Source of the DNA: a virus
IMG/VR virus record: IMGVR_UViG_3300048597_000384
Location: 1 to 54,046 of that record
DNA length: 54,046 nt
Direction: 5' to 3' (one strand)
The position numbers and the translations under genes were made by a program. Under the pieces are notes generated by a model that saw nothing but the letters and a program-made list of their open reading frames with translations, ran no database searches and was not told the DNA's origin. How positions within the stretch are numbered: position 1 is the stretch's first letter; each line of letters opens with the position of its first letter. Positions 12,690 to 37,318 of this stretch are shown here, piece by piece.

Positions 12690-12904
12690 TGCCGCCGACC
12701 AGCCCGCTGCGGCGCGCCTGCGCCCAGCTCGCCTATCTCGCCGAGACGCTGAGCCCGACCTGGCCCGAGACGCCGGCGCAGCGGCGGGCCTGGCTAGAGG
12801 AGATGAAAAAGCGCCTGGCCGAGGTCGAGGCGGCGTGCCCGGAGGCGTTCGCCGAGACGGTGGACCCGACCGGTACGGACCCGGCACCGGTGGAGGAAGG
12901 CTGA
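12689..12904 (+). CDS. hypothetical protein, 71 residues
   Basis: Mostly one long helix: AQRRAWLEEMKKRLAEVEAA forms a clear amphipathic stretch at about 34-53, followed by an acidic tail. The start overlaps the o-spanin stop (TGATG) and the stop overlaps the sliding clamp start (TGATG). It may be a small partner of the clamp or a spacer gene; no family is recognised. Confidence 0.5.
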   Translation: MPPTSPLRRACAQLAYLAETLSPTWPETPAQRRAWLEEMKKRLAEVEAACPEAFAETVDPTGTDPAPVEEG

Positions 12905-14067
12905 TGGCGGCGCGCAAGCTGAAGCCCGCCGCGGGCGGGGTGCCCACGGCCACCGTGGTCAAGGAAGACCTGGCCGCGGCCCTGGCCCTGCCGCGCTCGG
13001 TGGTGGCCAAGCGCAGCACGATCCCGATCCTGGCCTGCCTGCTGCTGCGGCAGAGCCGTGGCGAGCTGCATGTGGTCGGGACCGACATGGACATCGGGGT
13101 GGCCACACGCTGCCCCCTGCGGGACCATGACTGGCCGGACGGCGGGGCCGGGGTGGCGGTCGACGCCGACCTCCTGGCCGCCGTGGTGGCGGCCGCACCC
13201 AAGGGCGGCGAGATCAGGCTGGCGTCGGGGCCGAGCGGGCTCCTGGTCAGCCACGCGCTCGAGCGGGCGCGCCTGCCGGTGCTCCAGGGCGACGAATTCC
13301 CCTCGCTGAAGGAGCCGGACGGTACGGCGGTCGAGATCGCGGCCGAGGGCGGCAAGGTGGCCGCGGCCCTGGCGCGCGTGTCGGCCGCGATCAGCCGCGA
13401 GGAGACGCGCTACTACCTGAACGGCGTGTTCGTCGAGGTCCAGCGGCACCATGTCGAGCTGACCGCCACCGACGGCCACCGGCTGCACCACACGTGGTTG
13501 GAACCGGACGGGATCGAGGGCGAGGCGCCGGGCGTCATCCTGCCGCGGCGCCTGGTCGAGCTCCTGGCCGGGATCGAGGGCGAGGTCACGCTGCGGATCG
13601 GGGCGACGGGCGTCTCGGTGGCCGGCGGCTTCGGGCGGATCACCAGCCGGGTGATCGACGGGAGCTTCCCCGAGTGGCGCCGGATCGTCCCGCCGCCCTC
13701 GTCGGACGGGCTCGAGCTGTCGGGCGGCGACGTCGAGGCCGCCGTCAAGCGGCTGCGCGGCTTCGGCGACGGGGCGCTCGGCCTGTGGCTGGAAAAGGAG
13801 CGGCTGAGCCTCCAGGCCGCGACCGAGGAAGCGGCGGCGATCGCGGAGACCAGCATCGCCGGGGTGGCGCGCGGGGCGGCGGAGCCGCTGCAGACCGGCG
13901 TCAAGGGCCGCTACCTCGCCGATGCCGCCGCCGTCGCCGGTGGCGGGCGCATGGTGGTGAGCTGGTCGACCTCCAGTGCGGCCATGCGGGTCGCCTTCGC
14001 GGACCGGCCCGACGACGTCGTGGTGCTGATGCCCATGCGCATGGGTGCGTGGCGCGAGGTGGAATGA
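12904..14067 (+). CDS. dnaN: DNA polymerase III beta sliding clamp homologue (phage-encoded DnaN)
   Basis: 387 residues, about the length of bacterial beta (366 in E. coli). The sequence shows the clamp repeats: a VKEDLAAALALPRSVVAKRSTIPIL start typical of the first domain, LTATDGHRLHHTW in the second, and a VVLMPMRM end typical of the C-terminal clamp strand. The clamp tethers DNA polymerase to DNA. A phage copy would let viral DNA use, or compete for, the host replisome. It lies next to a VirE-type ATPase and the iteron array, which makes a replication module likely. The last residues are polar (GAWREVE). Confidence 0.9.
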   Translation: MAARKLKPAAGGVPTATVVKEDLAAALALPRSVVAKRSTIPILACLLLRQSRGELHVVGTDMDIGVATRCPLRDHDWPDGGAGVAVDADLLAAVVAAAPKGGEIRLASGPSGLLVSHALERARLPVLQGDEFPSLKEPDGTAVEIAAEGGKVAAALARVSAAISREETRYYLNGVFVEVQRHHVELTATDGHRLHHTWLEPDGIEGEAPGVILPRRLVELLAGIEGEVTLRIGATGVSVAGGFGRITSRVIDGSFPEWRRIVPPPSSDGLELSGGDVEAAVKRLRGFGDGALGLWLEKERLSLQAATEEAAAIAETSIAGVARGAAEPLQTGVKGRYLADAAAVAGGGRMVVSWSTSSAAMRVAFADRPDDVVVLMPMRMGAWREVE

Positions 14068-14571: not shown

Positions 14572-15243
14572 GTGAGCGAGCTGCTCGCGAGCGTGGAGCC
14601 AGGGCCGCTGCCGTTCCCGGCCGGCGAGCCGTCGCGCGAAGCGTTGTGCCCGGCTGGGACGCCGCCGGGGGGCCTTGCCTATCTGGGGGCCAGGGCGACG
14701 GTGCGCTGCTGGATGGTGTCCTGCCCGGAATGTCTCGCCGGCTGGCTCGCCGTCCTGCCGTCGGGCAGCCCGTTCGGCTATCGGCCGGCGGTCAGCCTTG
14801 GCTGCAGCCGCGGCTGCCCGCCGGACCTGGTCGAGTGGGCGTGGCACTGGAGGCTCGGCAATCTGGCCGAGCTGCGCCGCCTGGGCGGGCCGCCGGAACA
14901 GGTGGTCGGGGCCGAGCCGCAGGCCGGCTTCGCTGCCGCTCCCGTCCACTCGGGCGTGCGCTTCACGGGCGCCCCGGTCGACGCCGCGCGGCTTGCGGAG
15001 GCCATGCGCCGGTCGCACGCGGCGCAGCGGGTCTGGACGGGGGCCTGGTACGCCCGGCGGCCCGACCAGGCCCGCCTGCAGCTGTGCCGCGGGCTGGTGC
15101 GCGCCGGGGTGCGCGAGCCCGACGCGCTGCGCGCGGCACTGGTCGCCTACGAGCGGCGGCAGGGCCGCGATCCGGCGCTGAGCCTGCCGGAAACCATCGC
15201 CGCGGCCGCGATCGGTGCCGCCATTTCTGGGAGACGGGCATGA
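14572..15243 (+). CDS. zinc-binding-like replication-associated protein
   Basis: 223 residues with GTG start 14572. The N-terminal third contains CPEC and, 27 residues on, a CSRGC cluster, a possible zinc ribbon like those in primases. The rest is helical and arginine-rich with an ALVAYERRQGRDP motif near 190. The stop overlaps the start of the VirE-type ATPase by four bases. In many prophages a zinc-binding primase-like domain precedes the VirE/VapE helicase domain; here they seem to be separate proteins. This is inferred. Confidence 0.55.
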   Translation: MSELLASVEPGPLPFPAGEPSREALCPAGTPPGGLAYLGARATVRCWMVSCPECLAGWLAVLPSGSPFGYRPAVSLGCSRGCPPDLVEWAWHWRLGNLAELRRLGGPPEQVVGAEPQAGFAAAPVHSGVRFTGAPVDAARLAEAMRRSHAAQRVWTGAWYARRPDQARLQLCRGLVRAGVREPDALRAALVAYERRQGRDPALSLPETIAAAAIGAAISGRRA

Positions 15244-16493
15244 TCGGCGACGACTTCGTCGACCAGCTCGACCGCGCCGCGCGCTCGCCCGACTGGCGCT
15301 CGACGCTGATCTGTGGCGACAACGGGCCGAAAGCCAACCTCTACAACGTCCTGATGGCGCTGCGCCACTGCCCGGACCTCAAGGGCACCATCCGGCTCAA
15401 CGCCTTCCGGCTCGAGATCGACGTGGTGGCCCCGTTGCCCTGGGACGATCGCATCGGCCGGGAATGGTCGCGGCACGACGATCTGCACCTCACCGAGTGG
15501 CTGCAGCATCACGGCATCGGGGTGAAGGTCGGCGACACCGCCGACGGGGTCGAGGCGGTGGCGGCCGAGAGCAAGTACCATCCGGTGCGCGACTGGTTGG
15601 AAGGGCTCGCCTGGGACGGCCAGCCGCGGGTGCGGACCTGGCTGACCTACTATCTGGGCGTCGAGGACGGCGACTACAGCCAGGCCGTCGGCGCCAGGTG
15701 GCTGATCTCGGCCGTGGCCCGGGTGATGCGGCCCGGCTGCAAGGCCGACCATTGCCTGGTGCTCGAGGGCGACCAGGGGCGCGGCAAGAGCTCGGCCCTG
15801 CGCATCCTGGTCGGCGACGACTGGTTCACCGACGAGCTCGCCGACCTCGGCAGCAAGGATGCGGCGATGCAGACCCGCGGCGTGTGGGTGGTGGAGCTCG
15901 CCGAGCTCGAGCATCTCAGCCGCGGCGAGGTCGGGCGGATCAAGGCCTTCCTGACCCGCACCGTCGACCGCTACCGGCCGCCCTACGGCCGGCGGCTGGT
16001 GATGGCGCCGCGCGAGTGCGTGTTCGCCGGCACGGTCAACGACCGCCAGTACCTGAAGGACGAAACCGGCAACCGCCGGTTCTGGCCGGTCCGGGTAGGC
16101 CAGAGCATCGACCTCGCCGCCCTGCGCCACGACCGCGAGCAGATCTGGGCGGAAGCGGTCCAGCTGTGGCGCGACGGGGTGCGCTGGTGGCTGGAAGGGC
16201 GCTCGCTGGTCGAGCTCGCGCGCGAAGAGCAGGAGGGCCGCGCTAGCGTCGACCCGTGGGGGGACAAGGTGGCGGACCACGTCGCGGACAAGGGCGAGGT
16301 CACCGTGGCCTCGATCCTCACCGAGGGTGTCGGCAAGCGCCTGGGCGAGTGCACCCGCGCGGACGAGATGCGGATCGCCAAGATCATGCAGCAGCTCGGC
16401 TGGCGGCGAGGGCGGCAGAGCCAGCCGCCGCGGCGATGGTGCTACCTGCGCACCGCCGATGCCGGGCCGGCGGAGACGCACGATGCGCCATAG
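15240..16493 (+). CDS. VirE/VapE-family replication ATPase
   Basis: 417 residues. Its P-loop is GDQGRGKSS at about 177-185, followed by a GVWVVELAELEHLS segment (Walker B region), a YRPPYGRR basic region and a NRRFWPV motif near 300. This order is that of the VirE/VapE superfamily III-like helicase/primase proteins common in prophages and integrative elements. It probably unwinds or initiates at the phage origin. The array of repeated motifs begins eight bases after its stop. Confidence 0.85.
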   Translation: MIGDDFVDQLDRAARSPDWRSTLICGDNGPKANLYNVLMALRHCPDLKGTIRLNAFRLEIDVVAPLPWDDRIGREWSRHDDLHLTEWLQHHGIGVKVGDTADGVEAVAAESKYHPVRDWLEGLAWDGQPRVRTWLTYYLGVEDGDYSQAVGARWLISAVARVMRPGCKADHCLVLEGDQGRGKSSALRILVGDDWFTDELADLGSKDAAMQTRGVWVVELAELEHLSRGEVGRIKAFLTRTVDRYRPPYGRRLVMAPRECVFAGTVNDRQYLKDETGNRRFWPVRVGQSIDLAALRHDREQIWAEAVQLWRDGVRWWLEGRSLVELAREEQEGRASVDPWGDKVADHVADKGEVTVASILTEGVGKRLGECTRADEMRIAKIMQQLGWRRGRQSQPPRRWCYLRTADAGPAETHDAP

Positions 16494-16500
16494 GCGATCC

Positions 16501-16803
16501 GTCCCAACGGGGGTCGGGACGGCCAAGCCGTTGGCTGGCCTGCGGAATTTCCGTTTCGCGGCGATCCGTCCCAACCTCTGGCGGCGAGGTTGGGACGGCC
16601 AAAGCATTGCCATGAAAGGATAATCGGCCGCCGTCCCAACCGTCCCAACCTTTTCGGCATGCACCCGCACGCACAGGCACGCGCGAGCGCACAGGCAATC
16701 ATCAGATTCAGGTTGGGACATCAATAAAGGTTGGGACGGGCGTGGGAAATCAAAGGGTTATTCGTCCCAACCTCCCCTTTCGAGGTTGGGACGAGGTTGG
16801 GAC
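16501..16803. repeat. iteron-like array of GTCCCAACC motifs, candidate origin of replication
   Basis: The 9-mer GTCCCAACC occurs exactly, in either orientation, nine times: 16568, 16588(-), 16633, 16642, 16711(-), 16729(-), 16764, 16784(-) and 16795(-). Two further near copies are at 16501 and 16513. Two perfect 11-bp inverted repeats with nine-base loops (16567-16597 and 16763-16793) use the same motif. The copies cover about 240 bases, next to the VirE-type ATPase, and the stretch 16680-16760 is AT-richer than its surroundings. All of this fits an initiator-binding origin. Confidence 0.6.
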
Positions 16804-16825: not shown

Positions 16826-17233
16826 ATGGTCACGACGACGGTGCGGATGGGCGACTGGCTGCAGGAACAGGCGAACCGCGGCCACCTGCTGCGCTCGCAG
16901 GTCGAGGCGGCCCGGCTGTGGGCCAGCGATCTCGCCGAGCTGGGCACCGAGCTGCGCAGCACCCGGGTCACGCGCGAGGTGCGGGGCGGGGCGGCGGACG
17001 ACATCATGCGGGTGGCCACAGCCAGGCGGGTGGCGCAGGCCGAGGCCAAGCTCGGCGGCAAGGGCGGGCCGGTCTATGCGGCGGTGCATGTGGTGGCGGT
17101 CGAGGGCGGCAGCGCCGGCGACGTCGCCACCAGGCTCGAGATGCGGACCACCTCGGCCATGGACCTGATCAGGTGGGGACTGGGGCAGCTGGTGGGGGTT
17201 TACCAAATACGCGAACGGCGGTTGACTGGGTGA
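16826..17233 (+). CDS. hypothetical protein after the iteron array, 135 residues
   Basis: A helical protein with a basic N-terminal segment and, near 110-130, a helix-turn-helix-like pattern (GDVATRLEMRTTSAMDLIRWGL). It starts at ATG 16826 with GTGGGGG upstream. Position after the iterons and before the terminase allows an origin-binding, late-regulator or small packaging role; no family is recognised. Confidence 0.55.
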   Translation: MVTTTVRMGDWLQEQANRGHLLRSQVEAARLWASDLAELGTELRSTRVTREVRGGAADDIMRVATARRVAQAEAKLGGKGGPVYAAVHVVAVEGGSAGDVATRLEMRTTSAMDLIRWGLGQLVGVYQIRERRLTG

Positions 17234-17531: not shown

Positions 17532-18065
17532 TTGGAGGTGCCCGCGAACGGGCGCCGCCTGGTGCGCAAGTCGGCCTTCGCCAAGCTCCGCGGCTGGTCG
17601 CCGGCCAACGTCACCAAGCTCACCAAGCCCGGCGGCAAGCTCGCCGAGGCCGTCACCCCCGAGGGGCTGCTCGACCTGGACCTCGCGGAGCGGCTGCTGG
17701 CCGCCCGAACCAACCCGGCGCGGGTGCCGGTGGCGGCCGGCGCGCTGCCGGAGCTGGCGGGGCCGAGCTTCGCCGACGCCAAGACCCGCCGGGCCCTCGC
17801 CGACGCCGAGGCCGCCGAGATCAACCTGCAGCGGATGCGCGCCCGGCTGGTCGAGGTCGAGGGCGTGCGCCAGGCCGGGGCCGACTTCGGCGCCCTGCTG
17901 CCGCAGCTCCTCGAGGAGGGGCTGGTCGACGCGGTTGCCCGGATCCGGCAGGCCGCCACCACGGCCGACGCGACCAAGCTGGCCAAGCCCGTGGCCCTGG
18001 CCCTGTGCGCGCGGATTGTCCAGGAGCTCGAGCGCACGGTGCGCGAGGTGGCCGCCGATGCGTGA
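17532..18065 (+). CDS. terS: terminase small subunit
   Basis: 177 residues. The N-terminal HTH-like region (RRLVRKSAFAKLRGWSPANV) and the long helical oligomerisation segment (LADAEAAEINLQRMRARLVEVEG) match the lambda Nu1-type small subunit that recognises the packaging site. The start is uncertain: TTG 17532 has no ribosome binding site, whereas CTG 17517 in the same frame has a GGAGGG seven bases upstream and would add TQLPL-type residues. Its stop overlaps the large subunit start by eight bases. Confidence 0.8.
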   Translation: MEVPANGRRLVRKSAFAKLRGWSPANVTKLTKPGGKLAEAVTPEGLLDLDLAERLLAARTNPARVPVAAGALPELAGPSFADAKTRRALADAEAAEINLQRMRARLVEVEGVRQAGADFGALLPQLLEEGLVDAVARIRQAATTADATKLAKPVALALCARIVQELERTVREVAADA

Positions 18066-35332: not shown

Positions 35333-37318
35333 ATGAGCACGGCTGCAGTTGTTCCCGCCGACGTGGTGTGGGCGGAAGAGCCGCGCTCGCCGTCGCTGGG
35401 CGTGGCCTACCAGGTGTGGGAGGCCCTCTACCGGATGCTGCTGGCGGACCAGCTCCCGCCGGAAGAGATCCGGATCGCCGAAGGCGTGGCAGTCCTGTCC
35501 GCGGCCTCGCAGGCGCGGCTGATCCCGCAGGTCGACGACGAGCCGGACGAGCTGACCTCGATCGACCTCAGCTCGGTGGGCCTCGGCCGCATCATCCGGC
35601 TGTCCTGCCTGGATACCGGCGACAGCGGCGCGCCCCCGGCGATCACCGTGCGCCACAAGGCAGCCGGCATCATCAACAGCGGCGAGCTGGTGCTCGCCGA
35701 CGGTGCCGACATCGTCCTGACCAGCCCTGCGGAATGGCTGTGGCTGCAGCGGCTCGACAGCCAGTTCGTGCAGATCCTGCCCATCGGCGCCGGCCGGCTC
35801 GGCCGGCTCAGCCAGAACCTGGACATGCAGGGCTACGCCGCGTTCGGCGGGGCCTACTTCCTCGACAGCCACGCGGACTCGGCCCGGACCATCACGACTG
35901 CCCACCGCGGCAAGCAGCAGGTGAACACGATCTCCTGCGTCTACACCCTGCCGATGGCGCAGCCGACCGACGGCACCGCCTGGAAGCCCGGCGACTTCGT
36001 CCTGTTCCGGCAGGAAGCGGCGGCCTGCAGCTTCGTGACCTCGCTGGGCTCCACGCCGCGCAACCTCGACAATCACGACCGCGGCCGCGGCGTCGGGGCC
36101 AAGATGGAATGCGAGCTGATCCGGGTCTCGCCCACCTTCCTGTGGCAGCTGGCCGGGCAGACGCAGGCGGCGGGCGGGTCACCGGTCCCAACCGAGCGCA
36201 CCTTCCTGACCGCGGTGTCGACCAGCACGATCAGCACCGACGCCGCCTCGACGGCGTGGAAGAACGCGCTCTCCCTGGCCCATACACCGGGGGCAAGCGA
36301 GCGCTGGCTCTACCTTGCGCATGGCGGGTTCAAGTCCAGCTCGTCGCAGAGCAACACCGGCGGCGAGCTGCGCTTTCGGCGCCTGGAAGCCGCGGCGGGG
36401 CCGCAGCTGGGTGCCCCGCGCTATTCCACGCACCAGTCCGGCATGCTGATGATGACGGCCGCCGAGTATGGCGGCAGCCCCGGCGCCCAGTCGATCGACC
36501 TCGACATCAAGGTCGGCAACGGGACCTATTCGGCCTCGCTGGTGTTGCCGCAGATCGTCGGCATCCGGCTGGAAGCCGACGAGTTCCTCGAGCAGGCGGC
36601 GGGGGCGGACAACAACCTGACCTCGACCACCTATGTGGACCTGCTCACGCTGACCGAGACCTTCGCCGCCGACGACTACTATGTTTTCGCCTGGGGCGAC
36701 TATGCCTCGGTCGACGTCGGCGGTGTGACCATGGCGGTCGATGTCGACGGTGTGCTGCGCCACGAGAAGGCCTTGGGCCGCAACACCGTGCTCAACGGCT
36801 ATTACGGCGTGCTGCACCCGGTGACCTTCACCGCCGGCAGCAAGACCATCAAGCTCAAGGGCAAATCGAACGGGTCGTGGAACTCGACCGTGAAGAACAT
36901 GGGCATCTGCGTCCTGCGCAAGAGCAATTTCGAGGACACGGCCTCGATCAACAACAACGACCCGGCGACCACCTCGGCCACCGCGTATCAGGATTTCGTC
37001 ACCACGTCGAAGACGCTGCTGGACGGGTGGGACTACCTGGTGCTGGCCGACCTGGACACCAAGCTCGACATCGAGGGCTCCACCCCCTTGGTCAAGGCGC
37101 AGATGGTGCGCAACGGCAGCAGGCTTGGCCAGGAGAGCCGCGGCGTCCCCAGGACCGGCGGGCAGTACGTGCCGTGCAGCGCCGGCTTCATGGCGACGGT
37201 GACCAAGGCGCTCGAGGAAGACGCCTTCGCGCTGCAGTACGCCAGCGGCCGCAGCACCGAGACGGCCGAGGGCAAGGAAGGCACCCTCCTGCTGCTGGCC
37301 CTGGCGCGCACCGCCTGA
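35333..37318 (+). CDS. tail fibre protein 1
   Basis: 661 residues starting at ATG 35333, immediately after the gpJ stop. The N-terminal part is helical (VWEALYRMLLADQLP), then beta-strand-rich repeats; the C-terminal part contains the YYVFAWGDYASVDVGG and NGYYGVLHPVTF strands typical of fibre proteins. No enzymatic motif. It probably attaches next to gpJ and contributes to adsorption; the receptor is unknown. The stop overlaps the next start (TGATG). Confidence 0.7.
   Translation: MSTAAVVPADVVWAEEPRSPSLGVAYQVWEALYRMLLADQLPPEEIRIAEGVAVLSAASQARLIPQVDDEPDELTSIDLSSVGLGRIIRLSCLDTGDSGAPPAITVRHKAAGIINSGELVLADGADIVLTSPAEWLWLQRLDSQFVQILPIGAGRLGRLSQNLDMQGYAAFGGAYFLDSHADSARTITTAHRGKQQVNTISCVYTLPMAQPTDGTAWKPGDFVLFRQEAAACSFVTSLGSTPRNLDNHDRGRGVGAKMECELIRVSPTFLWQLAGQTQAAGGSPVPTERTFLTAVSTSTISTDAASTAWKNALSLAHTPGASERWLYLAHGGFKSSSSQSNTGGELRFRRLEAAAGPQLGAPRYSTHQSGMLMMTAAEYGGSPGAQSIDLDIKVGNGTYSASLVLPQIVGIRLEADEFLEQAAGADNNLTSTTYVDLLTLTETFAADDYYVFAWGDYASVDVGGVTMAVDVDGVLRHEKALGRNTVLNGYYGVLHPVTFTAGSKTIKLKGKSNGSWNSTVKNMGICVLRKSNFEDTASINNNDPATTSATAYQDFVTTSKTLLDGWDYLVLADLDTKLDIEGSTPLVKAQMVRNGSRLGQESRGVPRTGGQYVPCSAGFMATVTKALEEDAFALQYASGRSTETAEGKEGTLLLLALARTA

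Follow-up and report, generated by a model that had tools for sequence, protein, structure and literature searches.

Organization of the locus

The window, which is the whole 54,046-base stretch of viral DNA that was analyzed (IMG/VR record IMGVR_UViG_3300048597_000384), carries an array of short repeats immediately after a gene encoding a VapE-type helicase. The genes and sites that matter for the discussion below are as follows.

14572..15243, plus strand: open reading frame of 223 amino acids, overlapping the start of VapE by four bases
15240..16493, plus strand: VapE-type helicase gene, proposed initiator (PF05272, PHROG 256, PDB 7pds)
16254..16451, plus strand: predicted C-terminal winged helix, VapE codons 339-404 (AlphaFold2 model)
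16356..16358, plus strand: codon of R373, which opens the third (recognition) helix and co-varies with the repeat
16501..16650: left iteron block, with exact sites starting at 16568 (plus), 16588 (minus), 16633 (plus) and 16642 (plus) and near copies at 16501 (plus) and 16512 (minus)
16567..16597: first inverted site pair, 20 bp start to start
16651..16710: central gap without sites, proposed melting region
16711..16803: right iteron block, with five exact sites starting at 16711 (minus), 16729 (minus), 16764 (plus), 16784 (minus) and 16795 (minus)
16763..16793: second inverted site pair

The product of the open reading frame in front of VapE had no family match in PHROG and Pfam-type profile searches, and its position suggests an accessory replication protein. 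The phage gene at 12835-14067, approximately 1.2 kb upstream of VapE, encodes a sliding-clamp-like protein with DNA polymerase III beta subunit domains (PHROG 947). Downstream of the array, the next gene begins near 16826, a terS-like gene is found at 17532-18065, and the terS, portal and head protease genes of the record fall within 17.5-23.2 kb, for which reason a PICI satellite was rejected as the identity of the element. A possible attachment site is the tRNA-Ser(TGA) gene at 640-727, close to the left end.

Repeats of the array

It had been predicted that nine exact copies of GTCCCAACC/GGTTGGGAC and two near copies are packed into positions 16501-16803, right after a VirE-type ATPase gene. 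A site search of the sequence recovered all of these copies, with one mismatch in each of the near ones. Since the gene in question is the PF05272 gene at 15240-16493, the array does lie directly behind it, starting 7 bp past the stop codon. Two identical inverted repeats, CGTCCCAACCT-N9-AGGTTGGGACG, were likewise present as described at 16567-16597 and 16763-16793, and both can be extended to 13-bp arms with 7-nt loops. Outside the array, the record contains the exact 9-mer just once, at 36185. Within the 341-bp region, the commonest 9-mer has nine occurrences, against a maximum of six in 2000 dinucleotide shuffles, and the commonest 9-mer of any other 341-bp segment of the record reaches at most four copies. 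The sites form two iteron sets around a center: positions 16651-16710 are flanked by six sites on the left, two of which are near copies, and by five on the right. This gap is mildly AT-richer, with a GC content of 0.60 compared with 0.71 for the record, which places it at the 6th percentile of 60-bp segments. GC skew along the record showed no turn at the array.

Family and predicted DNA-reading domain of VapE

VapE matches PF05272 with an E value of 6e-83 and 278 bits (cut-off 25), and its best match in the PDB is 7pds, the SaPI5 PriRep1 helicase with double-stranded DNA (profile E 6.5e-89). An AlphaFold2 model of VapE (alignment A2; mean pLDDT 89.8) aligned with 7pds over its full length, including the C-terminal region (Foldseek E 4e-31; Z 33.9 over 386 residues). 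VapE is thus a member of the SaPI5 PriRep1 helicase family by full-length sequence and structure matches, yet the two proteins are only 24-26% identical in structural alignments. In the model, the C-terminus consists of helices 339-348, 356-364 and 373-385 followed by a beta hairpin at 388-404, and this helix-helix-helix-strand-strand order is read as a predicted winged helix.

Occurrence of the array with VapE

When viral contigs were scanned for the inverted 9-mer pair, 61 stretches were obtained, 50 of which carry at least four copies of the first eight bases of the 9-mer within 500 bp; in a genome scan, at least four copies were found in 42 of 118 stretches among the matches listed. PF05272/VapE is encoded in 46 of the 50 array-bearing viral records, compared with 1 of 18 control records found by a scrambled repeat. 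VapE lies inside the fetched stretch in 27 of the 50 cases, and of the other 23 records, 19 have PF05272 elsewhere; the four array-bearing records lacking it are fragments of 7.5-13 kb. The single control record with PF05272 carries an array of its own, and the scrambled control repeat proved to be a real repeat in contig L187 and probably in L185. In all 48 stretches that hold both, among the matches listed, the array is 3' of VapE, at a distance of up to about 0.2 kb in 22 and of 0.7-6.3 kb in 26. Plasmids with no annotated terminase, one of 4.3 kb, also carry repeats 3' of VapE, weak ones in the case of the 4.3-kb plasmid. The 9-mer array is a widespread element that recurs with VapE.

Two of these records have peculiarities of their own. 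L040, one of the 19 with PF05272 elsewhere in the record, has a weak match to this family (E 2e-11), and its 9-mer-pair hairpin is present in three identical copies 115-149 bp apart (L040:491-822), a look that differs from the other arrays. L185 contains seven GTACCCACC copies at 2278-2580, similar in look to the window array, and its whole 16-kb record gave no PF05272 match.

Repeat diversity and shared geometry

Among loci selected by VapE, counts are based on 78 of 86. In 38 of these 78 loci, some 8-mer occurs five or more times in the first kilobase 3' of VapE, which is seen in none of 780 shuffles and in 2 of 425 other chunks. With the distance widened to 4.5 kb, an array of at least five copies is found in 53 loci, and the other 25 have none inside 4.5 kb. 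Repeats found 3' of more divergent VapE genes include GTCCCAGT, GTCACCAAC, GTCCAACC, GTCCCACC and GTACCCACC. A second repeat family, TGGAAACC, is present in 10-12 copies about 2.4-3.1 kb 3' of VapE in L228, L211 and L219, and the L228 and L219 contigs also bear GTCACCAAC arrays.

Before the co-variation test, 26 loci were excluded by eye (poor geometry, broken frame or unrelated-looking repeat), and the remaining loci gave 89 distinct proteins and, from these, 43 representatives. In 35 of the 43 representatives, blocks on either side of a site-free gap face each other, with six and five sites as medians. For the longest gap, the median length is 86 bp, and its GC content is below that of vapE in 39 of the 43. 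Inverted-site spacing varies, mostly 18-22 bp from start to start, and many sites are arranged head-to-tail 8-10 bp apart, so that a hairpin or cruciform is not favored as the main function. In some GC-rich relatives, alternating purine-pyrimidine runs were noticed by eye in the gap; this feature was dropped and is not claimed for the locus because the twelve longest runs of the record lie outside its gap.

Co-variation of the repeat with residue 373

When motif classes were defined after inspection of the loci, residue 373 ranked first of 309 alignment columns for association with repeat class. Across the 43 representatives, this residue is R in 20 of 20 CAAC proteins, K in 11 of 13 YAC proteins and Q in 4 of 4 AGT proteins. 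Predictions were written beforehand and then tested on hold-out scans, from which duplicates and training-set proteins were removed; among the matches listed, 149 of 282 hold-out stretches have at least four copies, 132 of these with VapE. Among those matches, proteins with GTCCCACC have K in 43 of 44 distinct cases, mostly from one Pseudomonas-like group, and in 8 of 9 lineages. Proteins with GTCACCAAC, within the same matches, have R in 13 of 15 (5 of 7 lineages) and a wing Q in 14 of 15, as read by eye from the table (6 of 7 lineages). The prediction that AGT goes with Q failed: Q was found in 1 of 7 hold-out GTCCCAGT proteins and 1 of 3 lineages among the matches listed, and the AGT rule is therefore wrong. 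The lineage that broke it comprises L283, L285, L287 and L333, which carry 13-16 GTCCCAGT copies and have M, not Q, at position 373. Other hold-out exceptions are L448 (A), L528 (N) and L556 (K).

To separate association from kinship, independent pairs were taken on a tree of the ATPase, hold-out lineages included. Among the matches listed, R goes with ..CAAC and K with ..YAC in seven of nine such pairs, compared with three of nine for the next-best column, and all seven close pairs (distance at most 0.13) show this R/CAAC versus K/YAC difference. In the closest, L230/L236 and L237/L244, the ATPase domain is almost the same. Changes in the repeat go along with changes at residue 373 of the recognition helix, and this suggests that the neighboring VapE reads the repeats with its C-terminal domain.

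Alternative functions of the array

Intergenic arrays can be operators, and with the next gene starting at about 16826, the repeats could be thought of as a regulatory cluster, bound by a repressor or by VapE controlling its own gene, rather than an origin. However, the array comes after and not before VapE in the window and in about half of the relatives among the matches listed, and in the other relatives listed it lies up to 6.3 kb beyond VapE. Two facing blocks around a lower-GC gap are also a better fit to an origin. An operator cluster in place of an origin is accordingly held to be quite improbable, and autoregulation by VapE may exist in addition to an origin role. Alternatively, the array could be an origin whose repeats are read by a host or neighboring phage protein, VapE being loaded later. 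A distance of 0.7-6.3 kb between VapE and the array, as in 26 of 48 stretches among the matches listed, would leave room for further genes, and the L185 array stands in a record with no VapE match. This division of roles is nevertheless very unlikely given that, in all seven close independent pairs among the matches listed, changes of the repeat track residue 373 while the ATPase domains are nearly the same.

The position of the array 0.7 kb upstream of terS (the terS-like gene at 17532-18065) is the reason why a cos or pac packaging site, read by the small terminase, was considered. In Marinobacter phage PS3, however, the array is behind VapE at about 35.1-35.4 kb, 7 kb away from the large terminase annotated at 26.2-28.0 kb. 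Plasmid arrays adjoin VapE with no annotated terminase, and the repeat tracks a residue of VapE; a packaging function is extremely unlikely.

Comparison with known replicons

The alpha protein of satellite phage P4 is a primase-helicase that binds iterons. By description, P4 alpha and its ori resemble the present locus in pairing an initiator with a cognate origin (PMC6092414, available text). The closest parallel is the pri-rep-ori organization of SaPI/PICI elements (SaPIbov1, SaPI1, EfCIV583, EcCICFT073), in which a helicase gene is followed directly by a two-set iteron origin (PMC6092414), an arrangement shared by the candidate origin of the window. The available text of that source places PICI origins 3' of the initiator gene, with an AT-rich region between two iteron sets, and reports a functional rep-ori plasmid (PMC6092414). 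In the portion of another source that could be consulted, the C-terminal domain of SaPI Rep recognizes an iteron origin directly downstream, apparently as two hexamers (PMC7581432); for the VapE of the window, co-variation points toward the same mode of recognition. SaPI5 helicases are the topic of Qiao 2022, as cited in PMC10061031. The Cch2 helicase of SCCmec also has a C-terminal DNA-binding domain, which binds its putative origin, repeats downstream of its own gene; it differs in having three direct iterons of AAGTG type, is likened here by description alone, and is not shown to replicate in vivo in the available portion of the source (PMC7581432). Unlike PICI satellites, the window is a phage that encodes a terminase, a portal and a protease of its own; its repeats are different, and its gap is only mildly AT-richer.

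A candidate origin with VapE as its proposed initiator

Altogether, the array is very probably the replication origin of the phage, with the VapE encoded adjacent and upstream as its initiator, and the best reading of the sequence comparisons is a SaPI/PICI-type replicon inside a phage that would use VapE as its own initiator. The iteron-type candidate origin of the original prediction has thus become the best-supported reading, on comparative grounds. The initiator, which that prediction called yet unknown, probably is not, because a winged-helix residue co-varies with the repeat and VapE matches PriRep1 over its full length: the adjacent VapE is the candidate. The assignment concerns the protein family and the organization of the replicon, with origin function as a candidate role.

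VapE protomers would use the winged helix to bind the GTCCCAACC sites. With the gap flanked by about six sites to one side and by five or six to the opposite one, two hexamers could assemble facing each other, a picture based on the site counts and on the account of SaPI Rep. The two hexamers would then melt the central gap and unwind outward, and host enzymes would complete copying, perhaps with the clamp-like protein of the phage.

A literature search, with most subscription journals outside its reach, found no paper linking VapE, an origin of replication and iterons, and none combining "virulence-associated E" with iteron; one paper, on a CRISPR primase, mentions virulence-associated protein E together with a replication origin, repeats and phage. 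The paper on Marinobacter phage PS3, in its available text, notes a PF05272 domain, calls helicase genes missing and regards replication as unclear (PMC8424206).

More broadly, it is tentatively proposed that many phage and plasmid origins could form a large family with a common geometry, in which two blocks of about six sites face each other and each templates one VapE hexamer. Within such a family, the repeats would have diversified, and specificity could be switched by very few contacts, namely the residue that opens the recognition helix, where R goes with ..CAAC and K with ..YAC, and one in the wing, where Q goes with GTCAC. If true, such few-contact switches would keep co-resident replicons apart. 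With VapE read as initiator, origins and initiators can be predicted for many phages in which replication has yet to be assigned, and pairs of near-identical VapE proteins with different repeats and different residues at position 373 would serve as natural tests of initiator specificity.
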